A DNA stretch of 64,000 nucleotides, taken from assembly GCF_014646055.1 (NCBI RefSeq), contig NZ_BMMS01000001.1, positions 62,001 to 126,000 on the forward strand. Direction: 5' to 3'. The translations under genes and the position numbers were made by a program. How positions within the stretch are numbered: position 1 is the stretch's first letter; each line of letters starts with the position of its first letter. Positions 7,298-23,289 of this stretch are shown here, piece after piece. The notes under the pieces are model-generated. The model was not told the origin of the DNA, did no database searches, and worked only from the letters and a program-made list of their open reading frames with translations. The stretch comes from Wenjunlia tyrosinilytica. Its GTDB lineage: Bacteria; Actinomycetota; Actinomycetes; Streptomycetales; Streptomycetaceae.

Positions 7298-7415
7298 TGC
7301 GGTTGCCCTTCCTGGGTTGCCGTCGCCGTCGGCGCGGCGGCGGTGTCCTGGTGGTGGCCCCGGCCGCGCACGCGGCCGAGGTGGTGGCCGGGCCGCGGTC
7401 GCGACCCGGCCGAGG

Positions 7416-7622: not shown

Positions 7623-7633
7623 CACGGTGCTCC

Positions 7634-8272
7634 TCACGCCTTGCTCGTCGCGGTGGCCAGCGCCTGCTCCAGCGCCGGCAGGAAGTCGTCGAGCCGGTCC
7701 AGGCCCCAGAAGCGGTGCCGGCCGACCTTGAAGTACGGGACGCCGAAGATGTCGTCCTCGTAGATCTGCATCAGGGCGCGCAGACCCTGCTCACGTATGT
7801 GCGCCTCGTCGGGGGCGGCGACCAGGGCGGCGCCGGGCAGTCCCGCGTCGTCGCAGACACGGCGCAGCAGGCCGGGGTCGCAGATGTTCTCGCCCCGCTC
7901 CCAGCGCGCGGCCATCACGGCGGCGTAGTACTCGCTCTGCACGCCGAGTTCCCTCGCCTTGAACCAGGCCAGGTGCGGCAGGTCCCACCACTCGTCGCCC
8001 TTGTCGATGGGCCACTTCATGGCGTAGCCGTGCTTGGCGGCCAGGCGCTTGGTGTCGTTGAGGATGTACAGGTGCTTGGCCTTGCTCATGGCCACGTAGT
8101 GGAACTCGCCGCCCGCGGCCTCCAGGGCGGCCGCGCTGGCGGCGTCCGGCTCGGAGAACGGCACGTACTCGATGAGTTCCTGGGCGTTGGGCAGGCGCTC
8201 CTCGAGCTGCCGGACGGCCATCCAGCTGAACGGGCTGCGCAGGGAGAAGTACAGGCGCGGCGGCTTCCTCAC
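7634..8272 (-). CDS. HCCA isomerase / DsbA-fold oxidoreductase-like protein
   Basis: A 212-residue thioredoxin-fold protein of the 2-hydroxychromene-2-carboxylate isomerase/kappa-GST group. The N-terminus reads LYFSLRSPFSW, with SPFS where DsbA has CxxC; that Ser-for-Cys pattern marks the isomerase branch. C-terminal IFGVPYFKVG contains the conserved cis-proline and GRHRFWGLDRLD follows as in the family. Known relatives catalyse a thiol-assisted cis/trans step on a conjugated side chain, so isomerisation of polyene double bonds is a plausible but unproven role. The start overlaps the upstream fusion gene stop as GTGA. Confidence 0.85.
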   Translation of the reverse strand: MRKPPRLYFSLRSPFSWMAVRQLEERLPNAQELIEYVPFSEPDAASAAALEAAGGEFHYVAMSKAKHLYILNDTKRLAAKHGYAMKWPIDKGDEWWDLPHLAWFKARELGVQSEYYAAVMAARWERGENICDPGLLRRVCDDAGLPGAALVAAPDEAHIREQGLRALMQIYEDDIFGVPYFKVGRHRFWGLDRLDDFLPALEQALATATSKA

Positions 8273-10047
8273 CGGGCACCGCCCAGGAGCGCCGCCTGCA
8301 CATCGGCGTCGAGGACGGCCACGGTGCCGGCCTTCTCACCGCGGCTGATGGCGTAGCCGTGCATGATGGTGCCGGTGGCGGCGCGCTCGAGGCGGTCGCC
8401 GCGGCGCACGTAGCAGTCCATCCGCGCGGTGTACATCGTGTCGCGCAGGATCTCCTCGACCTTGAAGACCGTATGGACGGTCTCCTCCATCCAGATGTCG
8501 GAGAGCACCTGCACCCGGGCGCGGGAGACCACGGGAATCCAGCCGCGCTCCTCCAGCAGCCGGCCGATGGCCAGGTCCTGGGCGTAGAGGTAGCGGTCCA
8601 CGACCTCCTCCAGGGTCCGCACGTAGGCGGAGTGCTGGAGCCGGTCGGAGAAGTGGCAGTAGTAGTAGGGGGCGCGCCAGTCCCACAGCATGGCGCCGGA
8701 GCCCTCGGGCGCCAGGACGTCGGCGGCCTCCTGGCCCTCCTCGATGGTCAGGGTCGCGGCCTGGGAGTTGTCCAGGGCGCCGACCTCGGGGACCACATAG
8801 GGCTCGAGGAACGCCGGGACGGGCTCGGTGCCGGAGCCGTCCTTGACGGCGACGAGCGCCACCCGGACCTTGCCCTTGAGGGCGGTCACGGTCTGGCCGT
8901 CGCGCTCCACGGTGAGGGAGACGGTGAACGGGGCGCCCTGGCCGGGCTTGGCCTTGCCCGACACTACGGTGGCGTACACCTGCTCGTCGACCTCGAGCGC
9001 CACAGGCAGCTGCACCGAGGAGTCCACGATCTCCAGGCCGAGGCCGTAGGTGTGGTACAGCGAGCGGGCTCCGACGCCGCGGTCGCGGAAGTACTGCAGA
9101 ATCGCCTCCTCGACCAGGTACATGAAGTGCTTGAACCCGATCCAGGTGCGGATGTTCGCGCCTTCGTAGCGCGGCATGCCCACATAGCTCGTGGGCTCCC
9201 CGTCGAGCAGCTCGGTCACGGTCGGTTCTCCTTGTGAGTCGTCGGTCGGCCGGGCGGCGCGGGGGTCCCGGAGGAACCCGGCCGCGTCACGGCTCATCTC
9301 GTCGGCCTGCGCCACGTGGCAGAAGTGCCCGTAGTCCGGGCGCAGCCGGACGGTCGCGGCCGGCATCGCCCGGTCCAGCCCGGCGGCGCGCATCGGGGTC
9401 AGTCCCTCGTCGCGCGTCCCGGCGAGCACGAGGGTGGGCACGGTGATCCGGGTCAGGTCCAGATGCCCGGAGGCCGCGAACTCCCGGTAGAAGACCGGGA
9501 ATCCGGCGGGCACCGCCCGTTTGAGGAGCTTGCTCTCCATCAGCGAGCGGATCTCCGGATCCATCCGGGAGGCCTTCTCGCCGAGCGAGAGGTGCAGTCC
9601 GTCCACGAGCACCCGGCGGAACGCGGCCTGCGAACGCAGCCGCAGCGGCTCGGAGAGGGTGAACCCGGCGGGCCGGTAGAACGGGGCGGCCAGCACCACG
9701 GCGGCGATCCCCGGGTCCCGGACGTCCTCCAGCGTGGACAGGTGCTCGAGGATGGCGTTGGCGCCGAAGGAGTGGCCCATCAGGGCGTGCGGCTGCTCGG
9801 GGACCATCTCCAGCGCCCGCCGCAGCCACCGCGCCGGACTTCCGCCCTCGCGCCAGGTGTAGGTGTTGCCGCCGTGCCAGGGCATCTGGAGCGCGTACAC
9901 GGTGTACCCCTCCAGCCGCTCGGCGAGGAGGTTCCAGTTGCGCCAGGAGTCCTCGATGCCGTGCACGGCGACCAGCGCGGGGCCCTCGCCGGGCCCGCGC
10001 CAGACCTCCATGCCGTCGGCGGCGGCCACCTGGGTCCACCCGTTCAT
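8269..10047 (-). CDS. Alpha/beta-hydrolase fused to double hot-dog thioesterase-like region
   Basis: One open frame of 592 codons. Residues 1-265 are an alpha/beta-hydrolase: VHGIEDSW near 29, elbow MGHSFGAN near 97, acid GTRDEG near 214, histidine region YGHFCHVAQ near 243. Residues 277-592 hold two hot-dog halves, the first with WIGFKHFMYLVEEA, the second with YYYCHFSDRLQHSAYV and METTVHTV-like metal-free thioesterase features. At codon 277 a GTG stands eight bases behind a perfect AAGGAG, so the hot-dog part may also be made as its own 316-residue protein. ATGA overlap with the half-KS upstream and GTGA with the isomerase downstream. Probable acyl-ACP release or editing enzyme. Confidence 0.8.
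   Translation of the reverse strand: MNGWTQVAAADGMEVWRGPGEGPALVAVHGIEDSWRNWNLLAERLEGYTVYALQMPWHGGNTYTWREGGSPARWLRRALEMVPEQPHALMGHSFGANAILEHLSTLEDVRDPGIAAVVLAAPFYRPAGFTLSEPLRLRSQAAFRRVLVDGLHLSLGEKASRMDPEIRSLMESKLLKRAVPAGFPVFYREFAASGHLDLTRITVPTLVLAGTRDEGLTPMRAAGLDRAMPAATVRLRPDYGHFCHVAQADEMSRDAAGFLRDPRAARPTDDSQGEPTVTELLDGEPTSYVGMPRYEGANIRTWIGFKHFMYLVEEAILQYFRDRGVGARSLYHTYGLGLEIVDSSVQLPVALEVDEQVYATVVSGKAKPGQGAPFTVSLTVERDGQTVTALKGKVRVALVAVKDGSGTEPVPAFLEPYVVPEVGALDNSQAATLTIEEGQEAADVLAPEGSGAMLWDWRAPYYYCHFSDRLQHSAYVRTLEEVVDRYLYAQDLAIGRLLEERGWIPVVSRARVQVLSDIWMEETVHTVFKVEEILRDTMYTARMDCYVRRGDRLERAATGTIMHGYAISRGEKAGTVAVLDADVQAALLGGAR
9217..9233 (-). promoter_or_regulatory. Internal ribosome site and GTG start inside the fusion gene
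   Basis: On the minus strand AAGGAG (9228-9233) stands eight bases before GTG (9217-9219), in frame with the whole gene and exactly at the domain boundary. No stop codon separates the two domains. Confidence 0.75.
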
Positions 10048-10913
10048 GCCACGGCTCCCGCGGGGGTGCCGGGGACGAGCTCCAGGCTCGCCCAGCCGTC
10101 CTCGCTGTCGCCGCAGCCGACGGTGGCGGGCGCGGCGCCCGGCCCGGCCTCGGCCATCCGGGCGGCGGCGGACGCCAGCCGGACCACTCCGGCGGCGCCG
10201 TACAGCTCACCCGGCTCACGGCCGGTGACGGCCACGGGCTCGCGGTGGCGCGCAACGGGCCCGCACCGCAGCCCGGTCGGCTCGTCCCAGGCACCGGGGA
10301 TCCCGAGCAGGACGACTCCCGCGGCGGCGGCCAGCGGTGGGTGCGCGCCGGGCCGCAGCCCGGCCAGCTTCGTGGCGACCGCGTCGGCGGGCTCGACGCC
10401 CACCACGACCGCCTTGCGGGCCCGCCCTGACAGCAGGAGCACCCGCGCCAGGCGTACGGCGTCCAGTCCGGCGGTGGCGCCGCTGCACACGGTCAGGTTG
10501 GGGCCGGTGAAGCCGTACCGGATGGCGATGGTGCTCGCGATGACGTTGCTGGACGCGTTGGGGGCGTCCATCGGGCTCACCACGGAGCCGTTGCGCTCGC
10601 GCATGTCGGACAGCACGGTGCACACGGTCTCGACATTGCCGAAGTTGGAGGCCACGACAACGGCGGTGCCGGCGGCGCCGGGCAGGGGTTCGGCCGGGCG
10701 CCCCGGGGGCAGGCCCAGCGCGCGGTGGACCGCGCACAGCGCCAGCCGGGTCGCCGGCTCCTTGCCCAGCAGCCCCTTGCGGCCGAGGACCTCCTTGGCC
10801 CGCTCCGGAGGGCAGGCCGGCTGCTCGGGAGAGCCCGGCAGATCGGCGGCGGCCCAGCCGGGGGCGTGCACGGCCCAGCCGTCGAGCGCGAGCAAGTCGG
10901 TGCGCTCAGACAT
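10044..10913 (-). CDS. Half-length ketosynthase/CLF-like protein (CLF-B)
   Basis: A 289-residue protein matching only the N-terminal half of the ketosynthase fold. LGRKGLLGKEPATRLAL near residue 45 parallels the LGKRGWK segment of CLF-A and LGRRGWK of CLF-D, and TVCSGATAGLDAV near 155 occupies the active-site region with Ala in the Cys column by eye. HGTGT and K..GH regions are missing; the C-terminus ends in a short Ala/Gly-rich segment. The stop overlaps the fusion gene (ATGA) and the ATG overlaps the KS-B stop by eight bases, so it is embedded in the operon and not an obvious relic. Probably the structural partner of KS-B. Confidence 0.75.
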   Translation of the reverse strand: MSERTDLLALDGWAVHAPGWAAADLPGSPEQPACPPERAKEVLGRKGLLGKEPATRLALCAVHRALGLPPGRPAEPLPGAAGTAVVVASNFGNVETVCTVLSDMRERNGSVVSPMDAPNASSNVIASTIAIRYGFTGPNLTVCSGATAGLDAVRLARVLLLSGRARKAVVVGVEPADAVATKLAGLRPGAHPPLAAAAGVVLLGIPGAWDEPTGLRCGPVARHREPVAVTGREPGELYGAAGVVRLASAAARMAEAGPGAAPATVGCGDSEDGWASLELVPGTPAGAVA

Positions 10914-12129
10914 CGACAGCCTCCACGATCGTCACCGCGTTCACCCCGCCGAACCCGAACGCGTTCACCTGGGCCACCCGGGGGCGGGCCCGCAGCGGCT
11001 GCCCGTTCACGAGGGCGAGCTTCTCGGCCTCGGGGATGGGCGTGCGCAGGCCGACGACGGGGGGCACCACACCGGAGCGCATCGCCTTGAGCGCCACCAG
11101 GACGCTCATCAGCGCGGCGCCGCCGGAGGTGTGCCCGATGGCGCCCTTGATCCCGGTGACCGGCGGCCCGTCGGGGCCGAACGCCTCCACCAGGGCGGCG
11201 GCCTCGGTGGGGTCGTTGAGCGCGGTGGCCGTGCCGTGGGCGACGACCAGGCCGATCTCCCCCGGCGCGACCCCGGCCCTGCGGTGCGCGTCGCGCATGG
11301 TGGCGACGATGCCCGCGAGGTCGGGCGCGGTCTCGTGGTGGGCGTCGCAGCCCACTCCGACACCGCGGACGAGACCCAGGGCGGGCCGGTTCTTCGCCGT
11401 CCGCTCCGTCCGCTCCACCACGACGGCGACCGCGCCTTCGCCGAGCAGCACTCCGTCGCGGTCCGCGTCGAAGGGCCGCACGGTGTCGGCCGTGGTGGTG
11501 CCCACCCGGCCGATCATGGTGAGCATGGACTCGGTCATCGTGTCGCACCCGGCGGCCACCACCGCGTCGGCCTCGCCCAGCTCCAGCAGGTCGACGGCGA
11601 GCGCGAGGGCGTAGCCGGAGGCGGCACACGCGTTGGCCAGCGTGTGCACCTCCGTGACGTCCGGGGCCACCGAGCGGACCGCCTCGGTGAAGTGGGTCTG
11701 GGCCAGGCGCAGTTCGGCGCCGTCGCCGTGCCACTGCTCCACGGCGCGGTGCTCGCGCAGGCCCGTGCCGACGATCACGGCGACCCGGCGCTCGGCCGGG
11801 TCGACGCCCGCGTCGCGGAGGGCCTCGGCCACGCAGTGGGCCAGCCACCGGCCGGCCGACCGCGGACCCGCCTCGTCGTTCGAGGCCGGGTCCGTGCCGA
11901 GGCCGGTGCCCGTGGAGGCTCTGCCCGTGGAGGCAGGGCCCCCGGAGGCTGTGCCCTTGGAGGCTGCTCCCGCGTCGTCGATGCTGTACGCGTAGTGGAC
12001 ATTGAGCTTGTCCGGGTCACCGGTGCGCAGGGGGGAGACCCCGCTGCGCCCGGCGAGAAGTGCCTCGAAGGTCTCGTCGAGTCCGCCGAGGCAGCTGACC
12101 ATCGAGCTACCCGTGATCGCCACCGGCAC
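10906..12129 (-). CDS. Type II ketosynthase (KS-B)
   Basis: Condensing enzyme of 407 residues with NACAASGYA (Cys about 168), HGTATALND (His about 298, a variant of HGTGT) and KGAIGHTSGG (Lys about 328, His about 333). A loop at residues 55-90 is Gly/Ser/Thr-rich and absent from KS-A and KS-C. Two GTG codons (12129 and 12123) are possible starts, both behind a GGTGGAG ribosome site and inside the end of CLF-C; 12129 is used here. It precedes the half-length CLF-B. Intact catalytic residues suggest an active elongating or initiating ketosynthase with its own substrate range. Confidence 0.9.
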   Translation of the reverse strand: MPVAITGSSMVSCLGGLDETFEALLAGRSGVSPLRTGDPDKLNVHYAYSIDDAGAASKGTASGGPASTGRASTGTGLGTDPASNDEAGPRSAGRWLAHCVAEALRDAGVDPAERRVAVIVGTGLREHRAVEQWHGDGAELRLAQTHFTEAVRSVAPDVTEVHTLANACAASGYALALAVDLLELGEADAVVAAGCDTMTESMLTMIGRVGTTTADTVRPFDADRDGVLLGEGAVAVVVERTERTAKNRPALGLVRGVGVGCDAHHETAPDLAGIVATMRDAHRRAGVAPGEIGLVVAHGTATALNDPTEAAALVEAFGPDGPPVTGIKGAIGHTSGGAALMSVLVALKAMRSGVVPPVVGLRTPIPEAEKLALVNGQPLRARPRVAQVNAFGFGGVNAVTIVEAVDV

Positions 12130-13282
12130 GGCTCCACCCCCTGACCACCGCGGCGCCTGCCGCGCCCTCGGCGGTACGGGCGGTGATGACCGAGATCTCG
12201 CCGTCACGGGCGGGCTCGGTGCGGTGCCGCGCGAGGAGCGCGGCCAGCTGGAAGGCACCCGAGGCGCTGAACGCCTCGCCGGTGGACTCCTTGACCCGCA
12301 GCCGAGGAACGTCGGAGCCGAGCACCGAGGTGACCGCGGCCTCCTCGGCCTCGTCCAGCCGGGTCATCCCGTTGGCCGCGGTGGCGACGGTCGCCACCTG
12401 GTCGGCGGTGACCCCGGCCCGCTCCAGCGCCCGGGTCAGGCAGGTCGCCAGGCCCTGGGAGAAGGCGCCGTCGGGGCCGGGCGGGTCGAAGACCCCGACC
12501 TCGACGCTGAGCACCTCGGCGTCCGGCCGCCGTCCGGCGGCGCGCACCGCGTCGGCGTTCTCGACGACGAAGACCGCCGCGCCCTCACCCGGCGGCAGGC
12601 TGCCGCCCTCGGTGGACTGTCCGTAGTGCACCGCCCACGCGGCCTGCGGGCTGAACTCCTCGATGGAGCCGGCCAGCAGGGCGCTCGCGTAGCCGCAGCC
12701 GATGAGATTGCGGCTGTAGCGCAGGACGTTGAGCATCGCCAGGGGGCCGCCCGCGATGGTCGCGTTGGGGCCCTGGAGGCCGTACCAGATCCCGGCCTGC
12801 CCGGCGGCGCAGTTCATCACCGCGTTGGGGAAGAGCAGCGGGTTGACCAGGTACGGGCGCTCCTGGACGAAGGTGTCGCGGCTGTAGTCGCTGGTGGACT
12901 TGGCGCTGCCCGCCGTGGTGCCCAGCGTGATGCCGATGCGGGCGCGGTTGTCGTCGTCCACCTCGAGGTCGGTGTCGGCGAGCGCCGCCTTGCACGCGAC
13001 CATGCCGAGCGCGGTGCTGCGGTCGAAGAACGAGGTGCCCTTGCGGCCGAGGTGGTCGCGGACCTTGAAGTCCACCAGGGCGTGGGCGTCCTGGCGCGGC
13101 AGCGGCTCCTCGAACATCCCACTGACGTCGGCGGGCCCCGCGCCATGCCCGCCGATCGCGGCAGCCAGGGCCTGCGGCCCGATCCCGGCGCCGGAGAGCA
13201 CTCCGAAGCCGGTGATGGCCAGGGCCGGGGGCCCGGTCGGTGCCGGGACGGACTCGGCGGAGAGCTCCGGGGCGAGCGTCAT
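12107..13282 (-). CDS. Chain length factor-like ketosynthase partner (CLF-C)
   Basis: KS-beta subunit of 391 residues paired with KS-C. ITGFGVLSGAG starts the fold near residue 23, LGRKGTSFFDRST lies near 77, and the active-site stretch reads ATIAGGPLAML, so the Cys is replaced (Pro by eye). No HGTGT; the corresponding region is TAANGMTRLD. It ends VVRGWSRAGG. Start overlaps the KS-C stop as ATGA; its 3' end overlaps KS-B by 23 bases. Sequence differs clearly from CLF-A and CLF-D, so this set probably handles another chain length or stage. Confidence 0.88.
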   Translation of the reverse strand: MTLAPELSAESVPAPTGPPALAITGFGVLSGAGIGPQALAAAIGGHGAGPADVSGMFEEPLPRQDAHALVDFKVRDHLGRKGTSFFDRSTALGMVACKAALADTDLEVDDDNRARIGITLGTTAGSAKSTSDYSRDTFVQERPYLVNPLLFPNAVMNCAAGQAGIWYGLQGPNATIAGGPLAMLNVLRYSRNLIGCGYASALLAGSIEEFSPQAAWAVHYGQSTEGGSLPPGEGAAVFVVENADAVRAAGRRPDAEVLSVEVGVFDPPGPDGAFSQGLATCLTRALERAGVTADQVATVATAANGMTRLDEAEEAAVTSVLGSDVPRLRVKESTGEAFSASGAFQLAALLARHRTEPARDGEISVITARTAEGAAGAAVVRGWSRAGGDHG

Positions 13283-14484
13283 GAGGGCCTCCCCAGGATG
13301 ACGATGGCGTTGTTGCCGCCGAACGCGAAGCCGTTGACCTGGGCGATGCGGACATCGGCGGTGCGCGCCTGGTTGGGTACCGGGTCGATCTTGGGCATGT
13401 CCGGGTCCGGGGTGTTGAAGTTGATGGTGGGCGGCAGGAACGAGCCCGCGATGCCGAGCACCGAGGCGATCGCCCCGAGGCCGCTGGCGGCGCCCATGGT
13501 GTGGCCGAGCATCGACTTGGTGGAGCTGATCGGCGGAGGGTTCTCGCCGAAGACGTCGACCACCGCACTGGCCTCGACGTAGTCGTTGGCCGGGGTCCCG
13601 GTGCCGTGGGCGCAGATGTAGTCGACCTCGGACGCCTTGACGCCCGCGTTGCGGTGCGCGATGCGCATGCACTCGGCGATGCTGTCCCGGTTCGGCGCCA
13701 CCATGTGGTTGGCGTCGCAGTTGAGTCCGTAGCCGAGCACCTCGGCGTGGATACGGGCCCCTCGGGCCCGCGCGGACTCCAGGCTTTCGAGGAACATCGC
13801 CGCGCCGCCCTCGCCCGTGATGATGCCCGAGCGGTCCTTGTCGAACGGCGAGCACGCCTTCTCGGTGAGCGCGCCGAGGCGGTAGAAGCCCGCGTGCGAC
13901 CACCGGCCGACCGAGTCGGCGCCACCGGCGATCATGTAGTCGGCCTCGCCGGTCCTGATCAGGTCGTAGGCGTAGCCGAGGGCGTAGTTGCTCGCGGAGC
14001 AGGCGGTGGACAACGTGACCGCGTCGCCGGTCAGGCGCAGTTCCCGGTTGACCGCCTGCGACAGCCGTGCGCTGGAGACCTGACGCACCAGACCCGCGTC
14101 GAGGCCGTCCAGTCCGGCCGTCAGGCTGTCGCCCGTGAGCCGCTCGAGGACCTGGGACTCCCCACCGGTGGTCCCCATGCTCGATCCGGCCCTCGCCGCG
14201 GCGAGCTCGTCCTCGTCGATCCCGGCATCCGCGACCGCGAGGCGCGCCGCGGATGCCGCGAAGAGGCTGGTACGGCCCCACTCATCGACAGACAGCCGCC
14301 GGACCATGTCCTCAGGCCGGAAATCATGCACTTCGCCGGCCATGTAGTAGGGGAAGCCGGTGGAGTCGAAGCACGCGATCGGGGAGACGCCGTTGACGCC
14401 CTCACGCAGTCCGGCCTCGTAGGCGGACGCTCCGATCCCGATGCTCGACACAGGCCCCAGGCCGGTGATGACTACCCGTCGCAT
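13279..14484 (-). CDS. Type II ketosynthase alpha subunit (KS-C)
   Basis: The most conventional ketosynthase here: 401 residues, MRRVVITGLGPVSSIG start, STACSASNYA (Cys about 162), HGTGTPAND (His about 293), KSMLGHTMGA (Lys about 323, His about 328) and GFAFGGNNA at the end. It follows ACP1 with only four bases between the ACP stop and its ATG, and precedes CLF-C with an ATGA overlap. ACP-KS-CLF is the core layout of type II synthases, so this is the best candidate for the main chain-elongating set of the highly reducing system. Confidence 0.95.
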   Translation of the reverse strand: MRRVVITGLGPVSSIGIGASAYEAGLREGVNGVSPIACFDSTGFPYYMAGEVHDFRPEDMVRRLSVDEWGRTSLFAASAARLAVADAGIDEDELAAARAGSSMGTTGGESQVLERLTGDSLTAGLDGLDAGLVRQVSSARLSQAVNRELRLTGDAVTLSTACSASNYALGYAYDLIRTGEADYMIAGGADSVGRWSHAGFYRLGALTEKACSPFDKDRSGIITGEGGAAMFLESLESARARGARIHAEVLGYGLNCDANHMVAPNRDSIAECMRIAHRNAGVKASEVDYICAHGTGTPANDYVEASAVVDVFGENPPPISSTKSMLGHTMGAASGLGAIASVLGIAGSFLPPTINFNTPDPDMPKIDPVPNQARTADVRIAQVNGFAFGGNNAIVILGRPS

Positions 14485-14488
14485 CGGT

Positions 14489-14752
14489 TCAGCCCAGCCA
14501 GCCGGCGTGCTGCGCCAGGATGTTGTACACCTCGGTCAGGTTGACCATCTTGGGGAGCTCCGACTGCGGGATCTCGACCTTGTACTTCTTCTCGAGGCGG
14601 GCGAGGATCTCGATCGCGCGCAGGGAGTCGGCCTCGTGCTCCTCGACAAAGTGGCTGGTCTCGGTGATCTCCTCGGGCTCGAGCTCGAGGACCTCCGCGA
14701 CAATCTCGCGGATCTCGTCCAGCTGCTCCTGCTTGTTGATGGCGGTCGTCAT
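14489..14752 (-). CDS. Acyl carrier protein (ACP1)
   Basis: An 87-residue acyl carrier protein. EEHEADSLRAIEIL carries the phosphopantetheine serine (about 43) in the DSL motif, within the expected four-helix length. ATG 14752 is used; GGAAGG lies about 11 bases upstream. The phosphopantetheine arm is probably added by the Sfp-type enzyme encoded at 23290-24072. It is the first gene of the transcript that runs to KS-C, KS-B and beyond, and 288 bases of non-coding DNA with likely control sites precede it. Confidence 0.95.
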   Translation of the reverse strand: MTTAINKQEQLDEIREIVAEVLELEPEEITETSHFVEEHEADSLRAIEILARLEKKYKVEIPQSELPKMVNLTEVYNILAQHAGWLG

Positions 14753-14904
14753 ATCCGCAAACACCTTCCATTGGTATTCCCTGACGGACTCGCAGTTCGA
14801 TTCCGCTGCCATTGACATTAGGCAGGGGCGGGCAGCGGATCCAGCGGGGATGGGCGTTCGCAATAAAGCCGCTCCGGGTGCGCCCCCAACTCCCCGGGAA
14901 CACG

Positions 14905-15040: not shown

Positions 15041-16090
15041 TCACGGTGCCGCCTGCACGGCGGACCGGGGGCGGTTGACGGCGATGAGCGAGCCGACGAC
15101 GGCGACGCACCGCGTTCCCGCCCAGATCTCCCCGGACATGAACGCGTTGCCGGAGACCAGTTGCTCCAGGCGTACGACGTGCCGAAGCGCCTCTCCCGGC
15201 CCCACGCCTCCGGCGAACCGGCAGTCGCGGATCGCGGCGAGCATCAGCACCCCGTCGGGCACTTCGACCCCGGCGCCGACCAGCCACAGCAGCGCGGCGC
15301 TCTGCCCGAACGACTCGAAGGCGAGCGATCGGGGGTAGGCGTACCGCGCCGTCGGCAGGCCCTCCGGCATCTCCTGGTAGCACGGCTCGCTGCCGGTGAC
15401 CGCCTTGACCGCCGAGATCCCCCGGCCGGGCTCGACCGAGACCACCCGGTCCACCAGCAGCATCGGATGGCGGACCGGCAGGAGTTCGCGGATACGGGCG
15501 TGGTCGATCACCGGTTCACCGTCGGCGGGACCGGGCGGCGCGGTGGGCGGGGCGAGGGACTCCAGTCCGCGCGGCACGCCCACCAGCACCTTCAACGTGG
15601 CCACGGCGGTGCCGTCCTGGCGGGTGCACCGGGCGTTGACCGCCCAGCGCTCCCCCTCCGGCTGCGGCTCCAGCCCGGCGTCGATGGTGATCTCCTCACC
15701 GCCGAGCATCGGGGCGAGCAGCCGGGCGGAGCGCACCTCCAGCAGCTCGGGAGGGTCGGCGAGGCCGAACGCCTGGGCCACCGCCTGCCGTACGCCTTCC
15801 AGGAGGAACACGGCGGGCAGCATGGTCAGGCCGGGGAAGTGGCCGGCCATGTACGGGTCCTCGGCGGTGACCAGCTTGGCGGCGCGCAGCCGCAGGCCGC
15901 CGTCGAGGGTGAGGAGTTCGACGCGGTCCACCGCCCGCAGCGGCGCGGCGAACGAGCGTTGGCGCGGGGCGATCGATGCTGTCCCCACCGCGACCGCCCC
16001 CTTCGCGACCGCCCCCTTCGCGACCGCCCCTTTGGCGTCGGCACCCTTCGCGGCGGCGCCCACTGCCACGGAGGCGGCGGCCGCGCTCAC
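15041..16090 (-). CDS. Fused double hot-dog dehydratase (type B domain then type A domain)
   Basis: A 349-residue protein joining both dehydratase types found separately elsewhere. Residues 1-40 are a Gly/Ala/Val/Lys repeat. The type B domain has GHFPGLTMLPAVF near residue 82 and LLEGVRQA, keeping the histidine. The type A domain from about 190 has LLPVRHPMLLVDRV, then GSEPCYQEMPEG without histidine, and FESFGQSAALLW with the glutamate. Fusion order equals the gene order of pair 1 (6560 to 5584), which supports the view that A and B types act together as a dehydratase. Start overlaps the preceding type A gene as GTGA. Confidence 0.85.
   Translation of the reverse strand: MSAAAASVAVGAAAKGADAKGAVAKGAVAKGAVAVGTASIAPRQRSFAAPLRAVDRVELLTLDGGLRLRAAKLVTAEDPYMAGHFPGLTMLPAVFLLEGVRQAVAQAFGLADPPELLEVRSARLLAPMLGGEEITIDAGLEPQPEGERWAVNARCTRQDGTAVATLKVLVGVPRGLESLAPPTAPPGPADGEPVIDHARIRELLPVRHPMLLVDRVVSVEPGRGISAVKAVTGSEPCYQEMPEGLPTARYAYPRSLAFESFGQSAALLWLVGAGVEVPDGVLMLAAIRDCRFAGGVGPGEALRHVVRLEQLVSGNAFMSGEIWAGTRCVAVVGSLIAVNRPRSAVQAAP
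15991..16050. repeat. Tandem 15-bp repeats at the fused dehydratase N-terminus
   Basis: Two exact copies of cgaccgcccccttcg followed by two decayed copies; in frame they encode repeated Ala-Val-Ala-Lys-Gly-type pentapeptides before the first hot-dog domain. Confidence 0.85.
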
Positions 16091-16665
16091 ACCGGGACCT
16101 TGACGCCGGGCGCCTCGGCGCCGCTGTCCTGCTCCCGCGCCGGGGGCATGAGGACCGAGCTGGGGCGCAGCGCGGTCATCACGCTCTCCACGACGAGCAC
16201 CTGCCGGCCGTCCGCCGTGGTGGTCGTGCCCTCGAAGAACCAGGTGCCCTCCAGCGCGCGGCTGATCCGCACCTCGTGCCGCAGCAGGTCACCGGGCAGT
16301 ACCGGCCCGTGCACCTGGATGCCCGAGATCCCGCCGAACAGGGCCACCTGGTCGGCCACGACCTCACGGGGCTGGTCCCAGGCGGCGAGCAGGGCGGCGC
16401 TCTGGCACCACGACTCGACCAGCAGGGCCGTCGGATACGCGTACCCGGAGTCCGGGGTGTCGTCGGGCAGTTGCTGGTACCACGGCTCGTTGCAGGTCAC
16501 GGCCTTGAGGCAGACGATCCGGTCCCCCGGCTCCACTTCGAGCACCCGGTCCACCAGGAGCATCGGGAAGCGGTGGGGGATGAGCGCCTTGAGGCTCGCC
16601 ACTCCGGTCACTCCGGTCGGACCGGTCACACCGTTCGCGTGCTCGAGAACGCGTCCGACGCTCAT
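16087..16665 (-). CDS. FabZ-like hot-dog protein lacking the catalytic His (type A, pair 3)
   Basis: A 192-residue hot-dog protein. LIPHRFPMLLVDRV near residue 30 is a clear FabZ strand; NEPWYQQLPDD follows where NEPFFQGHFPG is expected, so the histidine is missing, while VESWCQSAAL keeps the glutamate. C-terminal tail is Ala/Pro-rich. ATG 16665 overlaps the preceding DsrE-like gene stop (ATGA), better than an in-frame GTG nine bases upstream. Its likely His-bearing partner in the same transcript is the type B protein at 18354-18731. Confidence 0.82.
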   Translation of the reverse strand: MSVGRVLEHANGVTGPTGVTGVASLKALIPHRFPMLLVDRVLEVEPGDRIVCLKAVTCNEPWYQQLPDDTPDSGYAYPTALLVESWCQSAALLAAWDQPREVVADQVALFGGISGIQVHGPVLPGDLLRHEVRISRALEGTWFFEGTTTTADGRQVLVVESVMTALRPSSVLMPPAREQDSGAEAPGVKVPV

Positions 16666-17054
16666 ACGAACCACACTCCGTCGTACTCGGGCCAGCGGGC
16701 GGCCAGCTCATTGGTGTCCAGGACTTCCACACCCGGCACGACGTCGTCCGGTCCGAAGCCCAGCGCCCGAAGGTCCGGCTCGTCGACCATGACAGGAACG
16801 CCCTCGGTGATCAGCTGCCGCACCGAGGTGCGGTAGTCCGGCAGGGTGTCCATGCGCACGGGCCCGAACTCCACGACGGGCTGGTAGATGTCCTCGTCCA
16901 CCGCGAGGGTGACGGCCGCTCCCCGCAGGGCCAGCGCCACCGCGCCCAACTGGGCCCGGAAGTCGAGGATGCCGTAGAGGGCGTCGAAGAACTGCACCTC
17001 GACGGCGCCCCGGTAGGCCCGGTCGATCACCCCGAGCACGCGGTATTCGGACAT
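16662..17054 (-). CDS. DsrE/TusC-like protein 3
   Basis: A 130-residue protein that fits the DsrE/F-like fold: a start strand YRVLGVIDRAY, then FFDALYGILDFRAQLG and VTLAVDEDIYQPV, matching the alternating strand-helix-strand pattern of TusC/DsrF subunits. It has no cysteine, as expected for a structural subunit of a TusBCD-type complex. It is translationally coupled: its ATG shares one base with the stop of the next DsrE-like gene (TGATG) and its stop overlaps the hot-dog gene (ATGA). Assignment rests on fold pattern, size and context, so it is tentative. Confidence 0.6.
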   Translation of the reverse strand: MSEYRVLGVIDRAYRGAVEVQFFDALYGILDFRAQLGAVALALRGAAVTLAVDEDIYQPVVEFGPVRMDTLPDYRTSVRQLITEGVPVMVDEPDLRALGFGPDDVVPGVEVLDTNELAARWPEYDGVWFV

Positions 17055-17467
17055 CAGGCACCCCCGATGAAGACGGTCTTGTCGGCGCCCTCGATCGTGG
17101 AGACGAAGCGCATGGGCGAGCGGAAGCGCACCTCGTTGATGTGGCTGGTCGCACCGCGTTCGGCGCTGCACGCCGTGCAGGCGATCCACGCGAAGGTGCC
17201 GGGGTTGGCCGCCAGCATGTCGCGCACGACGCGCGAACTGGAGGGGTAGACGCCCTCCGGGTCGCGGGTGTTGATGAGCTTGGTGTCGCCGTGCGTCGTC
17301 TGCGTCAGCATGTTGGCGTAGCCGCAGGCCCACAGCCGCACCGTCCTCCCCTGGTCCAGCACGGACTGGGCCAGCCGCAGGGCCGAGGTGATGACGTCGT
17401 TCGAGTGCGGGGCCGCGGTCACCACGAGCAGGAGGTCCCAGCGGCGCTGGGTGATGGTCCCGGCCAT
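17054..17467 (-). CDS. DsrE/TusD-like protein 2 with conserved cysteines
   Basis: A 137-residue DsrE-family protein. DLLLVVTAAPHSNDVITSALRL opens the fold in two steps, VRLWACGYA follows, and FAWIACTACSAERGA (Cys about 97 and 100) matches the C..C..RG active loop of DsrE/TusD sulfurtransferases, which carry a persulfide on that cysteine. It shares TGATG junctions with both DsrE-like neighbours, so the three are probably made in equal amounts as a hetero-oligomer. No TusA, TusE or rhodanese gene is visible nearby. Why a polyketide cluster needs a sulfur relay is unknown. Confidence 0.72.
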   Translation of the reverse strand: MAGTITQRRWDLLLVVTAAPHSNDVITSALRLAQSVLDQGRTVRLWACGYANMLTQTTHGDTKLINTRDPEGVYPSSSRVVRDMLAANPGTFAWIACTACSAERGATSHINEVRFRSPMRFVSTIEGADKTVFIGGA

Positions 17468-17826
17468 CAGTGCCACACCGCCCGGCAGCTCTCGGACATC
17501 AGCAGCTCGGCCGCCCTGTCCATGCCCACCACGGTCACATGCGGGGAGAGCGAACGGGCGGCGAGCGCGCGCTGCGCCGCCGAGAAGTCGTCCACCCACA
17601 CCTCGGCGCCCGCCTTGGCCAGGCGCTCCAACTGGGGCACACCGGGCGCGGCGGCGAAGACGCCGTCCTGCACCAGGAACACCCGGACCTCGTGGCCCGC
17701 CTCGGCGAGCACCCGGGCGTCGTCCAGGAACCGGCCGGCGTTCGGCCCGGCCCAGGTCCCCTGGCTTTCGATCAGCAGATATCGTGACGGATCGTCCACA
17801 GGCCGTCCATCCCCCTCAACGGTCAT
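17467..17826 (-). CDS. DsrE-like protein 1
   Basis: A 119-residue protein with the DsrE layout: YLLIESQGTWAG start strand, then ARVLAEAGHEVRVFLVQDGV, the typical DsrE strand-helix-strand with the VFLxxDGV signature, and VWVDDFSAAQRA. A single cysteine lies near the C-terminus (SESCRAVWH). Length equals TusC/TusD-sized subunits. The ATG overlaps the SRPBCC stop (ATGA) and the stop shares a base with the next DsrE-like start (TGATG). Part of a three-gene set that mirrors tusDCB/dsrEFH in number and size. Confidence 0.7.
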   Translation of the reverse strand: MTVEGDGRPVDDPSRYLLIESQGTWAGPNAGRFLDDARVLAEAGHEVRVFLVQDGVFAAAPGVPQLERLAKAGAEVWVDDFSAAQRALAARSLSPHVTVVGMDRAAELLMSESCRAVWH

Positions 17827-18344
17827 GGCAGCGCGGCCGCATCGCGTTCGGCCAGCGCCTTCAGGGTCAGCAGTTGTTTGCGCATCATGAGGGTGTCGCC
17901 GAACGCGAGCAGTCCTGCCCGGATCCGCGCCGCGCCCTTCGGGGTGGCCGCATTGAGCCGGACCACCAGTCGGCTGGCCCCGGGCTCGCGCGGGACGACC
18001 CGGTAGGTGACCGCCATCTCGCCGTAGGCCTTGGCGGCCGCGGGATAGGTCACTCCGGTCAGATGCCGGTCGGTCTCGAAGTCGACGAGTTCGAACGCGA
18101 GGAAGCGCTGTCCGAGGGCCAGATGGTCGGCGCCCGGGGTGAGCGTGGGGCTGCTGCGGTGCTGCCGCCCGTAGGTGTAGGCCGCGGTTCTGATCTGGCA
18201 CAGCCAGCGGAAGGTCAGCGGGACCGGCGCGTCGACGTCGACGGCCCGGTGGAAGCTGACGAAGGGCCGCGGCGGATGGTCGTCGCACGGGTAACCCGCC
18301 GCGCACTCCTGCTCGGTGGCGCCCCATGACCTCGTGTCGAACAT
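17823..18344 (-). CDS. SRPBCC/START-like protein
   Basis: A 173-residue protein with features of the SRPBCC ligand-binding fold: an opening strand FVSFHRAVDVDAP, VPLTFRWLCQIRTAAYTYG, and a C-terminal helix around residues 140-165. Related proteins include aromatases/cyclases of type II synthases as well as unrelated binding proteins, but no cyclase-specific motif is visible. AGGGGGA precedes the ATG by five bases and the gap to the dehydratase upstream is nine bases. It may bind or cyclise the polyene intermediate; that is inferred from context. Confidence 0.6.
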   Translation of the reverse strand: MFDTRSWGATEQECAAGYPCDDHPPRPFVSFHRAVDVDAPVPLTFRWLCQIRTAAYTYGRQHRSSPTLTPGADHLALGQRFLAFELVDFETDRHLTGVTYPAAAKAYGEMAVTYRVVPREPGASRLVVRLNAATPKGAARIRAGLLAFGDTLMMRKQLLTLKALAERDAAALP

Positions 18345-18353
18345 CGGGTCCCC

Positions 18354-18731
18354 CTAGGCCGGGTCCCGGTACCGCAGGCGCAGGGTCGCGGTGCGGTCCC
18401 GGTCGGTACGGCAGCGTGCGCGCACGTCCCGCACGCCGTTGGCGTGGGTGATCACGCAGTCGACGGCGAGGACGTCGCCCGGGAAGACCGGCGTGTAGAA
18501 CCGCACCGAGCGGATCTCCTCGAGCTCCGGCCGCACCCCGTCCTGCTCGTCGGCGTGCCGCAGCACCGCCTGGTGCACGGCGTCCAGCGTGAACACCCCG
18601 GGCAGGAGCGGGAACGCCGGGTAGTGCCCGGTGAAGACGGGAGCGGCCGGGTCCACCGGGATCCGCATCTCGACACCGGCGTCGTCCAGGCGCAGCACCT
18701 GGGCGCCCGGCAGCAACGTTACCGCGCTCAT
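18354..18731 (-). CDS. FabZ-like hot-dog protein with catalytic His (type B, pair 3)
   Basis: A 125-residue single hot-dog protein. FTGHYPAFPLLPGVF near residue 33 carries the dehydratase histidine; TLDAVHQA follows with Asp where the other two type B proteins have Glu. Like the other type B proteins it lacks the N-terminal LLVDR strand. The ATG overlaps the ACP2 stop (ATGA). Likely partner: the His-less type A protein at 16087-16665, four genes downstream. Confidence 0.82.
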   Translation of the reverse strand: MSAVTLLPGAQVLRLDDAGVEMRIPVDPAAPVFTGHYPAFPLLPGVFTLDAVHQAVLRHADEQDGVRPELEEIRSVRFYTPVFPGDVLAVDCVITHANGVRDVRARCRTDRDRTATLRLRYRDPA

Positions 18732-18982
18732 CCAGCGGCCAGCTTCCGCGCCAGCAGGTCCTGCACATCCGGGAGGCGGCGGATCTGCACGATCTCCGCC
18801 TCCTCGATCTTCACCTGGTAGCGGCGCTCGAGGGTGACCGCCAATTCCAGGGCGACCAGCGAATCGACATCGAGGTCCTCGATGAACAGCGCGTCGTCGG
18901 TGAGCGATTCGGGATTGACGTCGAGCGCGTCGGCGACCAGTTCCCGCAATTCTTCCTTGCTCAAAGCGGCTTCCGTGGTCAT
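18728..18982 (-). CDS. Acyl carrier protein (ACP2)
   Basis: An 84-residue acyl carrier protein with EDLDVDSLVALEL; the phosphopantetheine serine is at about 41. AAGGAG lies six bases before the ATG at 18982. It differs from ACP1 around the serine (DLDVDSLV versus EHEADSLR), so the two may serve different ketosynthase sets. It begins the transcript with the dehydratases and DsrE-like genes and lies behind a strong hairpin. Confidence 0.95.
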   Translation of the reverse strand: MTTEAALSKEELRELVADALDVNPESLTDDALFIEDLDVDSLVALELAVTLERRYQVKIEEAEIVQIRRLPDVQDLLARKLAAG

Positions 18983-19033
18983 CGCATCTCCTTTTCGGGT
19001 ACGAGCAGCAAACCAGAGTCGAACGAGAGGCAA

Positions 19034-19151: not shown

Positions 19152-20300
19152 TCACAGGGCGAGCACACCGCGGATGACGAGTTCCGCGGGACCGAGCACC
19201 GCCTTCACCCGCAGCATGCGATTGCTGTCCGAGTAGGTCAGCCGGAGCCCCAGCGCCTGGAACGCGCTTGCCTGTGCCTGCCCCTCGGCCTCGCGCAGCA
19301 CCCTCAGATGACGCGCGGTCGCCGCGACCGTCGCCTCGTGGTAGGCGCCGGTGCGCGCCGCGGTGACCAGCTGCATGAGGCGGCGCGGCGAGCACGAGGT
19401 GCGCAGCCACGAGGTGAGCGGTCCGAGGACCGCCTGCTCGCGCAGATAGACATTGCGGGGGTGGTCGATCCGGTTGGCGCTGGCGTACTCGGCGGGGAAA
19501 CGGCAGCGGTAGTAGGGCTCCCCGTTGTTCCAGGTGCCCTGCATCAGCCGGTTGCAGCGGGCGCAGCGCACGAGTCCGCGCAGGATGTAGGGCCGTCCCG
19601 CCGGGGCCTCGCCGGCGGCGGGCCGGGTGCGGCGGCGGTCGAACATCAGCTGGACCCGGTCGAAGACCTCGGGCGCCACGATCGGCGGGGACACCAGTGC
19701 CGTGCCGCCCGGCTCACCGCTCGAGGTGCGCCCGGCGTAGCGGCTGTTGACGAGGATCGCCCGCACCGCGCTCTTGGACCAGGCGACCGTGCGGCGCTCG
19801 GGATCGCGACCGACGGCTCCGGGGCTGGGGATGCCGTCGGCCGTCAGGCCCTCGGCTATGCCCTGGAGCCCGTTGTCCGCCAGGTATTCGTCGAAGATGC
19901 GCACCACGATGTGGGCGGTGCGCTCGTCCGGAACGAGCGCCTGCCGCTGCGTGCCGTCAACGCTGACGGTGGCGACCCGGCAGCCGTAGGGCGGCCGGCC
20001 GCGCAGCCCCGACGCCCGGGCGGGCGCCAGGGGCATGAGGGCGTCGGGCAGCGGGGCGGTGTCGCGGAGCGGGGCGGTGGGCGGCTGGGCGGTGGGCGGC
20101 TGGATGTCCTCCAGTGGGACGGCGAACGGCTGGCCGTCCAGCACCGAAGGGGGCTGGTGATGATGCCTGCGCACAAGGGCGCTGACCCGGGCGTCGGCGA
20201 CACCGCCACCCTGGCAGGTGGCGCGGCCGCGGCCCACGCGTGGGCCGAGTGTGTCTGTGTGCTTGGCGATGTGCATTCTCGTGATCCCCCGTGTTGTCAC
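19152..20300 (-). CDS. Serine-recombinase-like protein without catalytic domain
   Basis: A 382-residue protein with the C-terminal parts of large serine recombinases: the recombinase domain from about residue 100 (GRPPYGCRV, VVRIFDEYLADNGLQGIAEGL, AVRAILVNSRYAG) and a zinc-ribbon (CARCNRLM near 250 with YYRCR). The N-terminal resolvase domain that carries the catalytic serine is missing; instead there are about 95 low-complexity residues with PPTAQPPTAP. Large serine integrases usually have 450-600 residues. GTG 20300 is used; ATG 20276 behind GGGGGA is an alternative. It follows CLF-D by 16 bases. It may be a relic or a DNA-binding protein reused as a regulator. Confidence 0.75.
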   Translation of the reverse strand: MTTRGITRMHIAKHTDTLGPRVGRGRATCQGGGVADARVSALVRRHHHQPPSVLDGQPFAVPLEDIQPPTAQPPTAPLRDTAPLPDALMPLAPARASGLRGRPPYGCRVATVSVDGTQRQALVPDERTAHIVVRIFDEYLADNGLQGIAEGLTADGIPSPGAVGRDPERRTVAWSKSAVRAILVNSRYAGRTSSGEPGGTALVSPPIVAPEVFDRVQLMFDRRRTRPAAGEAPAGRPYILRGLVRCARCNRLMQGTWNNGEPYYRCRFPAEYASANRIDHPRNVYLREQAVLGPLTSWLRTSCSPRRLMQLVTAARTGAYHEATVAATARHLRVLREAEGQAQASAFQALGLRLTYSDSNRMLRVKAVLGPAELVIRGVLAL

Positions 20301-20316
20301 TCATGAACGTGCCTCG

Positions 20317-21426
20317 CTACGAGCCTCGAACGGTCACCGCGGCGAGATGCCCGTCGTCGGAAACCGCGACGACGAGCCCCGGGCCGGGATCGTTCAGCAG
20401 CCCGGCCAGTTGCAGCAGGCCGGAGACGGCGCCGAAGCGCGCGTCGGCCCCGGCCGACGCCGTGTCCTTCAGCGCCGGTCCCCGTGCCGAGAAGGCCTCC
20501 CGGACGGCCTCGTCCACCGAGGCGGTGGAGTCCGGGCCGCAGAAGGCGTATCTCAGAACCTGCTCGCCGGCTCCGAGTCCGGCCACCTTCTCGGCGGCGG
20601 CCCTCAGTGACTCGGGCCGCCAGGCACCGGCGGGGTCGCGGGTGATGAACCGTGACGTTCCACCCGTCACCTCCCCCGGCGCCGGATCGGCATCGCGGTC
20701 GCCGCGCTCCAGCAGGAGCGCCGCCGCCCCGCCCAGGGTGTCCGACCCCGGTGCGGTGTCCTCGGTGGCCGTGGCGAGCACCCGGTCGGCCCGCCCCCGG
20801 CGCAGTGCGTTCAGCGCGAAGAGCACGGCGTCCAGACCGGCCACGACCGGGTTGGTCAGCGTGACGGAGAACGCCCGGCACTGCATGGAGATGGCCAGTT
20901 GGCTGGCCGGCATATTGACGGAGAAGCCGGGCAGCTCGGCCGGGCTGAGCCCCGAGGAGCCCTCCTCGCGGATGGTGCGGTCCAAGCGGGCGTGCATGGC
21001 CGCGATGGAGTGGTGGGTGCCGGTGCAGACGCCGAAGCGCGCGGCGTCGTGGCCGTGCGGCGGCTTGTCGCCGTGGCGGGTGCCCGCGGCCTCGTTGGCC
21101 GCGGCCAGGAGATAGCGGGTGGCCGGGGTCAGGTACTTCCAGCCGCGTCGGCCGAGGTACGGCACCGGGTCGAACCAGTCCGGGCCGCCCGTCCCTGTCG
21201 TGTCCGTGCCCGTCCTGCCCGACCCTGTCCCACCCGGTCCTGTCCCACCCGGCCCTGTCCTGTCCTTCCCCCTTCCCTCCGACCCCGTCCCGCCTGTCCC
21301 CGTCCCGCCCGTCCCTGTCCCGCCCGGCCGTTGCGTCCCCGCCGCCGTCGCCGCGGGGCCGGTGAGGTCGGCCGGGCCGCGGACTCCCGGGGCGACCAGG
21401 CCGATGCCTGTCACGGAGATGTTCAC
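20317..21426 (-). CDS. Chain length factor-like ketosynthase partner (CLF-D)
   Basis: KS-beta subunit of 369 residues. MNISVTGIGLVAPG start, LGRRGWKYLTPATRY near residue 90, and FSVTLTNPVVAGLDAV in the active-site region, where the Cys column holds Val by eye. Residues 30-85 are an insertion of Gly/Thr-rich repeats (GTGTGGTG type) encoded by tandem repeats. Paralogue of CLF-A, sharing NFSVN/GFSVN and VTLxN segments. Starts with GTG overlapping the KS-D stop (GTGA). Confidence 0.87.
   Translation of the reverse strand: MNISVTGIGLVAPGVRGPADLTGPAATAAGTQRPGGTGTGGTGTGGTGSEGRGKDRTGPGGTGPGGTGSGRTGTDTTGTGGPDWFDPVPYLGRRGWKYLTPATRYLLAAANEAAGTRHGDKPPHGHDAARFGVCTGTHHSIAAMHARLDRTIREEGSSGLSPAELPGFSVNMPASQLAISMQCRAFSVTLTNPVVAGLDAVLFALNALRRGRADRVLATATEDTAPGSDTLGGAAALLLERGDRDADPAPGEVTGGTSRFITRDPAGAWRPESLRAAAEKVAGLGAGEQVLRYAFCGPDSTASVDEAVREAFSARGPALKDTASAGADARFGAVSGLLQLAGLLNDPGPGLVVAVSDDGHLAAVTVRGS
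21190..21335. repeat. C-rich tandem repeat block inside CLF-D
   Basis: Many copies of short units such as ctgtcccacccggtc and ccgtcccgcc in direct orientation, encoding the Gly/Thr-rich insertion near the CLF-D N-terminus. Strong C/G strand skew. Confidence 0.8.
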
Positions 21427-22577
21427 GACGGCGCTCCCAGCACGAGGGCGGCGTTGTTGCCGCCGAATCCGGTGGCGCTGACCAGCACCCGCGGCTCGGT
21501 GAGCGGCACCGGGCCGTCCACCGGGACCTCGAGCGGGCAGCCGGGGTCGAGTGCGGACACATGCGCGTTCGGCGGCACCGTGCGGTGACGCAGCATCAGC
21601 GCCGCGGCGACGCAGCCGAACACTCCTGCCGCTCCCGCCGTATGGCCGATGACGGCCTTGATGCCGAAGGCGGGGGTACGGTCCACCCGCTCCCCCAGGG
21701 CCGCCGCGATCACATCGCTCTCCACCACGTCGTTGACCGCGATGCCCGCGCGGTGCAGCACCAGGGCTCCGGGCGGGCCGGACGCCTCGGCCAGCGCCCC
21801 GGCGACCGCGCGGCCCAGTTGCTCCCCGCTCGGTTCGGGTGCCGTCGGGTGGTGGCCGTCGCAGCTCCAGCCGTAGCCCTCGAGGACGGCGTAGGGCGTG
21901 GCACCCCGGCGGCGGGCGTGCTCGGCGGACTCCAGGACCACGGCTGCGGCGCCGTCACCGGTCACCATGCCCTGCCGGTCGGCGTCGAAGGGGCGGCACA
22001 GCGTGCGGTCCAGCAGTCCGAAGCGGTCGAGGGAGGCGAGCGCCACCCGCGAATAGCTGTCGGTGCCGCAGGCGACCACCACGTCGGCCTGCCCGGTGGC
22101 GATCAGCTCCGCGGCCCAGCTGACCGCGTAGACACCGGCGGAACAGGCGGTGCTCAGGCTCTGGTTGGGCCCGCCGAGGCCGTATGCGCCGGCCACGGCG
22201 GAGGCCACCTGGAAGGAGGCGGTCCCCGTGGCGGCGGGGGCGGCCCCCGCTTCGGCCAGGTCGATGTCGCCCAGCGTGGTGCCGACGGCCAGACCGGCGT
22301 CGGCGAGGTCGTCGCGGCCCAGCCCGGCGTCGGCCAGGGCCTCGCCGACCGCGTGCCCGGCCATGCCGCTGGCCCGTCCGTACAGGCGTCCGGCGCGCTC
22401 GGAGCGCTCCTGGGCGGGGCCCCGGACCCGGTACACCGAGGGGCGCTCGTCCAGGCCGCAGTCCTCGGGCGCCGGGGTCGGCGTGCCGTCGGCCCGCAGG
22501 AGTCCCTCCCACAGCGACTCCACCGAGTCGCCCAGGCAGCTCACGGCACCGAGGCCGGTGATCACGACCGGTGGCAT
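21423..22577 (-). CDS. Type II ketosynthase (KS-D) with altered HGTGT motif
   Basis: Condensing enzyme of 384 residues. STACSAGVYA (Cys about 145) and KAVIGHTAGA (Lys about 307, His about 312) are intact, but the first histidine motif reads LHRAGIAVND instead of HGTGTPAND; the histidine (about 275) remains. ATG 22577 lies behind AGGGGGC. Paired with CLF-D by a GTGA overlap. The set resembles KS-A/CLF-A, which points to duplication followed by specialisation, for example for chain start. Confidence 0.9.
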   Translation of the reverse strand: MPPVVITGLGAVSCLGDSVESLWEGLLRADGTPTPAPEDCGLDERPSVYRVRGPAQERSERAGRLYGRASGMAGHAVGEALADAGLGRDDLADAGLAVGTTLGDIDLAEAGAAPAATGTASFQVASAVAGAYGLGGPNQSLSTACSAGVYAVSWAAELIATGQADVVVACGTDSYSRVALASLDRFGLLDRTLCRPFDADRQGMVTGDGAAAVVLESAEHARRRGATPYAVLEGYGWSCDGHHPTAPEPSGEQLGRAVAGALAEASGPPGALVLHRAGIAVNDVVESDVIAAALGERVDRTPAFGIKAVIGHTAGAAGVFGCVAAALMLRHRTVPPNAHVSALDPGCPLEVPVDGPVPLTEPRVLVSATGFGGNNAALVLGAPS

Positions 22578-23289
22578 GCCGCCCCCTGGTGCGTCCCGCT
22601 CCCCTGCTGTGCCCGGCTTTCCTGCCGTGTCCGGATCCCCGGGGACACCCGGGGCGCCCGGGAATTGTCGTCCCGGATTTTCCGGTGGTTCATTTTGTGG
22701 CGCATCCCAAGCAGCCCGTTTCCCCCGTGCGAACATGACTGACCCGAAGAAGCCGGACGGGGGCACGTGATTCCCTCGTACGAAACGTTCTTCTCTCGGT
22801 TCCGCTGCGATTTCCGTGCGTACCACCCCCTGGCGGGCGGCACGACGACAACACGATGACCATCGGGATCGACCCGAAATGCCTCGCGGGCGAATGCGGG
22901 ACTCCCCGCTTCAGCGCCGCTTAAGGCAAGTTCAAGTTATGTCCGCAACCCCTGTGCACGCAACGCGGAGACCACTAGTGGACAGGCGCGGCCCCCTCTC
23001 GGCCCCCGCCCACGCCCGATCTGTCATCTTGCTGCCTTCCATCAGGGGAACCCCGCACGGTTCCTATGACGTGAACCACACATCTGTGCTGGTCCGGCGG
23101 TGCACGTCGCACCCGCCGCCCCGAGCCGAGCCGCACCTCGGCGCTTCGGCGCCCCGCCGCACGGGGCCGGGAAGGAGTGAAGCCGTGGCCCCGTCGGCGC
23201 CGCGGCCCCGCCGAGGCCACGGTCCCGCCTGCGCCGCGGCTCACGGCCGGACGGGCAACAGGTGCCGCGGATACGGGAGTCGGAGCTTG
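22578..23289. other. 712-bp non-coding stretch before KS-D
   Basis: No convincing gene on either strand. It should hold the KS-D operon promoter (minus strand) and the end of the LuxR-PPTase transcript. An AT-rich island around 22920-22945 with the direct repeat ACTTGA-ACTTGC (minus strand) is the most likely control region; I see no clear -35/-10 pair. Confidence 0.5.

Follow-up and report, generated by a model that had tools for sequence, protein, structure and literature searches.

A trio of DsrE-superfamily proteins in a Wenjunlia tyrosinilytica polyketide cluster, a probable cyclase complex of the Kcn17-Kcn18-Kcn19 type

The window analyzed here, a 64,000-nucleotide stretch of Wenjunlia tyrosinilytica contig NZ_BMMS01000001.1 (positions 62,001 to 126,000), carries three consecutive small genes on the minus strand inside a type II PKS operon. 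They encode subunit A (P0001, 119 amino acids, 17467-17826), subunit B (P0002, 137 amino acids, 17054-17467) and subunit C (P0003, 130 amino acids, 16662-17054). All three reading frames are open, and A/B and B/C are joined by 1-nt overlaps of the form TGATG. The gene upstream of A (17823-18344) shares 4 nt (ATGA) with it, and a FabZ-like reading frame (16087-16674) overlaps C on its 3' side; because of this run of overlaps the set looks translationally coupled. A sequence-only reading of the same DNA had described three consecutive genes of 119, 137 and 130 residues with TGATG overlaps, with neither TusA, TusE nor rhodanese nearby and no enzyme for sulfur insertion. The coordinates and sizes of the reading frames agree with that description, and the genes around the trio encode dehydratases, ketosynthases, CLFs, ACPs and a KR.

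The surrounding cluster extends from about -2.1 kb, to the left of the window, where gene functions were read by eye from the sequence, as far as 25 kb. Its genes are for several KS/CLF pairs, dehydratases, a KR, an isomerase, two ACPs, a hydrolase/hot-dog fusion and the trio, along with an acyl-CoA carboxylase subunit, a malonyl transferase, a phosphopantetheinyl transferase, an MFS pump and a LuxR-type regulator. The core HR type II PKS (KS/CLF pairs, dehydratases, KR, isomerase, fusion and ACP1) occupies 4388-14770 on the minus strand and has the gene content of the kcn cluster. Within it, also on the minus strand, lie the KR (6557-7297), a DsbA-family polyene isomerase (7634-8272; PF01323, 8.1e-17), a fusion of an alpha/beta hydrolase with a hot-dog thioesterase-like protein (8269-10047) and ACP1 (14489-14770). 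The fusion is represented by two separate genes in kcn (Kcn8 and Kcn9 by position) and in most other trio clusters. A double FabA-like dehydratase is encoded at 15041-16090 (minus strand; PF07977 in two stretches, 4.7e-15), and the minus-strand FabZ-like dehydratase lies directly 3' of C (FabA-like domain 4.6e-13, fabZ 4.9e-24). A 15-nt repeat within the double dehydratase gene (15983-16042) encodes AKGAV repeats and is similar to a 15-nt tandem repeat at 21159-21364, within a CLF gene, which encodes a Gly-Thr-rich stretch near the N-terminus.

On the other side of the trio, the minus-strand gene coupled to A encodes a 173-amino-acid protein (P0004), SRPBCC-like only by eye, that matched nothing in Pfam or NCBIfam. 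Among 80 genomes searched, its strong relatives were found only in trio-positive genomes, where they are encoded upstream of A or downstream of the isomerase, and P0004 is likely to be an accessory to the trio. The ACP gene nearest the trio, ACP2, follows at 18728-18985 (minus strand; PP-binding, 7e-12). At 19152-20300, also on the minus strand within the PKS cluster, is a gene for a serine-recombinase-like protein with Recombinase and zinc-ribbon domains, in which no Resolvase catalytic domain was found; since homologues lie upstream of PKS genes in genomes G302, G127, G191 and G292, it is a conserved cluster gene. The KS/CLF pair found with the trio block (20317-22580, minus strand; ketoacyl-synt domains) is the same one that adjoins the trio in WS9326A-type loci. 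The window cluster contains no NRPS and no evident oxidoreductase or dehydrogenase besides the KR. A free acid product is expected because the cluster lacks an NRPS, and the cluster is best read as a youssoufene-like, NRPS-free cinnamoyl-lipid cluster, the probable product being a free youssoufene-like acid.

The three proteins are members of the DsrE superfamily, A by its Pfam match and B and C by predicted structure. Subunit A exceeds the cut-off of PF02635 (DsrE) at 3.2e-7, and B (0.041) and C (0.18) individually fall below it. PF02635 was matched by 10 of 50 relatives of B (best 3.3e-6) and by two of 43 relatives of C (best 1.5e-4), and no other Pfam family was matched in either set. Profiles built from relatives gave marginal top matches in the PDB, to YchN for B, to MTH1491 and ST0148 for C, and to DsrH and TusB for A. 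Searching PDB sequences with B alone gave no match, and the B and C profiles matched the individual TusD and TusC chains of E. coli weakly; structures were used instead. Single-chain AlphaFold2 models were obtained with a pLDDT of 90.0 for B and 85.5 for C. The best PDB matches of the two models were YchN, DsrEFH, TusBCD and other DsrE proteins; B matched YchN and DsrE at 6e-6, and C matched YchN, ST0148, MTH1491 and DsrEFH chains. The A and C profiles are homologous to each other (E 4e-8), and the segment LVQDGV of A aligns with TusB. Thus A is a DsrH/TusB-like subunit, B is DsrE/TusD-like, and C is a further DsrE-fold subunit without a cysteine; together they are likely to form a hetero-oligomer. 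The earlier proposal of three DsrE-fold proteins is upheld by the PF02635 match of A, the PF02635 matches of relatives and the predicted structures of B and C. By HMM search the same proposal stands for A against DsrE, B and C taken alone being sub-threshold, and the cut-offs of the TusB, TusC and TusD families exceed every score: A reaches 26.8 bits (4.3e-6) against TIGR03011 (TusB/DsrH), whose curated cut-off is 49.2, B reaches 11.7 bits against the NCBIfam TusD model (cut-off 89.25), and C has no Tus match in NCBIfam.

In the middle subunit, all 87 distinct relatives examined carry the motif C97-x-x-C100-x-x-x-R-G (P0002 numbering), which bears out the persulfide-type C..C..RG loop noticed in the sequence-only reading, and Trp46, Cys48, Gly49, Lys63, Pro75, Trp94, Arg104 and Gly105 are kept equally strictly; His109 is nearly always kept. 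Cys97 aligns with Cys78, the established catalytic cysteine of E. coli TusD. Cys100 is an addition relative to TusD, and YchN has it too. In C, two Arg-Gly motifs are kept (R15-G16 and R44-G45), and in A, Asp36, Asp79 and a C-terminal Val-Trp-His.

Strong matches to B occur in 35 of the 396 Streptomycetaceae genomes searched and at 68 named loci of actinobacteria, which are mostly from Streptomyces but include Actinoplanes, Saccharothrix, Streptosporangium, Actinokineospora, Lentzea and others. A, B and C occur together and in fixed order at every locus with the three genes in range, 33 of 33 in the Streptomycetaceae set and 67 of 67 among the named loci, so the pattern is not due to chance. 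A-B-C is an intact unit in approximately 100 loci, almost always adjoining a KS/CLF type II PKS: KS/CLF genes are present in 46 of 46 long named loci, 25 of which have NRPS genes within 10 kb. In 45 of the 68 loci an ACP gene lies no more than 2.5 kb from B, several of the loci being cut by contig ends. The DsbA-family polyene isomerase co-occurs strongly with the trio, being found in 34 of 35 trio genomes versus 45 of 361 genomes without it (Fisher p 5e-26, a rough measure, the genomes being related). Clusters with the isomerase but no trio are nevertheless common, being present in 45 genomes; hence some members of the cluster class do without the trio.

One of the trio genomes, G139, encodes a glycosyltransferase identical at 396 of 396 residues to Kcn28 (PDB 6J31), and so contains the gene cluster for kitacinnamycin. 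If the ACP is set as Kcn4, the gene count of G139 runs through KS-family proteins (5-7), the hydrolase (8), the hot-dog protein (9), a KS-like protein (10), an ACP (11), DHs (12-13), the KR (14), the isomerase (15), a UbiB-like gene (16), C (17), B (18), A (19) and a 189-amino-acid protein (20) to the NRPSs, which start at 21; with the glycosyltransferase set as 28, further counting brings a second isomerase to 33. In the published numbering (PMC6510318), the KR is kcn14, the NRPSs are Kcn21-23, the P450 is Kcn27, the glycosyltransferase is Kcn28, and the PKS genes are kcn4-15 and kcn33. The Kcn28 identity and the gene count agree with these numbers and indicate that the G139 trio is Kcn17-Kcn18-Kcn19, a match made through gene order and numbering, not accession. 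The window trio comprises three contiguous genes homologous over their length to the G139 copies of kcn17 (C, 39% identity), kcn18 (B, 42%) and kcn19 (A, 39%). According to the passage of PMC9321520 that cites Shi et al. (JACS 2022), Kcn17-Kcn18-Kcn19 and YssX catalyze 6pi-electrocyclic ring closure, which in kcn yields the cinnamoyl benzene ring of kitacinnamycin, and the epoxinnamide cluster has a homologue of neither cyclase.

Four isomerase-containing relatives of the window PKS (G302, G127, G191 and G292; L138-L145) lack the trio genome-wide. The core gene order of G302 is that of the window cluster, with KS proteins up to 94% and the isomerase 80% identical, and the whole block of KSe/CLFe pair, ACP2, 173-amino-acid gene and trio is absent. 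The core order ACP, KS, CLF, KS, CLF, hydrolase, isomerase, KR, DH, KS, CLF appears to fit the description of the youssoufene type (PMC9381841), and the gene order suggests that G302 is ysf-like. YssX was sought among genes common to the trio-less clusters; those that recurred were mostly a regulator, a recombinase-like protein, a 189-amino-acid protein and peptide-cluster genes, and YssX was not found among them. P0004 was also considered as the alternative cyclase YssX and rejected, its strong relatives being confined to trio-positive genomes.

We consider it very probable that the window trio is a Kcn17-Kcn18-Kcn19-type cyclase complex that acts on an ACP-bound polyene in benzene ring formation. 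That the window trio would share the activity of the kcn trio is suggested by homology at only 39-42% identity, and the kcn activity itself is taken from the single citing sentence in PMC9321520. In the proposed mechanism, the surrounding type II PKS would supply a conjugated polyene on its ACP as the substrate of the DsrE-fold hetero-oligomer. The DsbA-family isomerase would first set a Z double bond, and the complex would then bind the hexatriene part of the chain and catalyze 6pi-electrocyclic closure to a cyclohexadiene, which would become the ortho-substituted benzene ring of the cinnamoyl-lipid product. The active site would lie in subunit B, with Cys97/Cys100, Trp46, Cys48, Lys63, Trp94, Arg104 and His109 as candidate residues. 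Aromatization could be spontaneous, could depend on an enzyme encoded elsewhere, or could involve the CxxC pair. A bolder and rather unlikely extension is that the complex is a redox-coupled cyclase, in which thiol/disulfide chemistry of Cys97/Cys100, with Cys48, would both close the triene and oxidize the cyclohexadiene to benzene. If true, it would put the persulfide-carrier fold to a new use and account for the lack of an evident dehydrogenase in the cluster.

Other explanations can be offered for the same genes. The trio could be a thiol-redox enzyme in which Cys97/Cys100 oxidize the cyclohexadiene, or add reversibly to the polyene and change its double-bond geometry, with cyclization being partly spontaneous. 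The invariance of the CxxC pair and Cys48 among the distinct relatives and the lack of an oxidoreductase besides the KR are consistent with such a role, and an FAD oxidoreductase does lie beside some trios, although in only eight of 68 loci. However, aromatization could proceed spontaneously in air or by an enzyme encoded elsewhere, and the CxxC is not special to the pathway because YchN has one too. We regard this explanation as improbable in its own right, but it can be compatible with the cyclase function. The redox or thiol role in polyene formation mentioned in the sequence-only reading may still hold. Alternatively, the trio could serve assembly without catalysis, docking ACP2 and the second KS/CLF so that a ring-bearing intermediate can be extended. 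This would account for the inclusion of ACP2 and a KS/CLF pair in the trio block, and for the absence of that block from G302 despite the highly similar core PKS; the strictly kept polar and cysteine residues suggest instead a catalytic or binding pocket, and we find an assembly role very hard to credit.

The sulfur carrier envisaged in the sequence-only reading is hardly credible at all. A true TusBCD/DsrEFH-like relay, passing persulfide sulfur to the product or to a tRNA or enzyme, is favored by the DsrE fold of all three subunits and by the persulfide cysteine position in B. However, TusE/DsrC (PF04358) gave no match in the source genome (completeness 99.95%), with the E. coli control positive; its one TusA domain is on another contig and its only other DsrE-domain match is on contig 9. 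In the cluster itself, neither TusA, TusE nor rhodanese was found, nor any gene for sulfur insertion; the scores lie below the curated Tus/Dsr cut-offs, and the gene order (H-like, E-like, third subunit) differs from the D-C-B (E-F-H) order of tusDCB and dsrEFH. Sulfur relay was rejected for the absence of TusE and sulfur enzymes and the sub-threshold family scores. The passage in PMC9321520, in crediting the kcn homologues with ring closure, also argues against the thiol-redox, assembly and relay explanations alike.

The sequence-only reading had further regarded a sulfur carrier or a redox/thiol role in polyene formation as something not established for pathways of this type. As far as the trio itself is concerned, this has to be revised: it is homologous to Kcn17-Kcn18-Kcn19, the ring-closing proteins of the PMC9321520 passage, and is found in WS9326A-type clusters as well. 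The function of this kind of trio, ring closure, had thus already been assigned, and what is added here is the assignment of the DsrE fold and the equivalence of the TusD cysteine. A search of the open-access literature found no paper joining the DsrE family to cinnamoyl biosynthesis, and a 2026 protein-interaction paper showed no connection to sulfur or DsrE. The trio links a sulfur-carrier fold to polyketide ring formation, and the fold together with the TusD-type cysteine provides a lead to the mechanism. The window cluster and G302, a near-relative without the trio, form a natural pair for finding what the trio contributes.

The Kcn17-Kcn18-Kcn19-type complex proposed for the window can be set beside several known systems. 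Like E. coli TusBCD and Allochromatium vinosum DsrEFH, the trio has three DsrE-fold subunits and a catalytic-type cysteine in the TusD/DsrE-type subunit; it differs in the lack of a TusE/DsrC partner, in gene order, in scores below the curated cut-offs, in the extra Cys100 and in its polyketide context. The youssoufene (ysf)-type PKS, as represented by G302, shares with the window several KS/CLF pairs, the isomerase, KR, DH and MFS, but youssoufene ring closure is credited to YssX in the passage of PMC9321520. In the WS9326A-type clusters, A-B-C is accompanied by ACP2 and the KS/CLF block as in the window, but there NRPS genes are present. Streptomyces griseus BIG105 (L038), described as carrying a WS9326A-like cluster, carries the trio, and its B and that of the S. 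calvus cluster (L042, assigned by similarity) are 65-66% identical to the window B. The kcn cluster of Kitasatospora sp. CGMCC 16924 has the same contiguous DsrE-fold trio within an HR type II PKS cluster with the same partners and a polyene isomerase, and the same invariant CxxC...RG in the middle subunit. In contrast to the window, where the trio lies inside the PKS operon with a 173-amino-acid partner gene and without an NRPS, the kcn trio is on the opposite strand, between the UbiB-like gene and the NRPSs.
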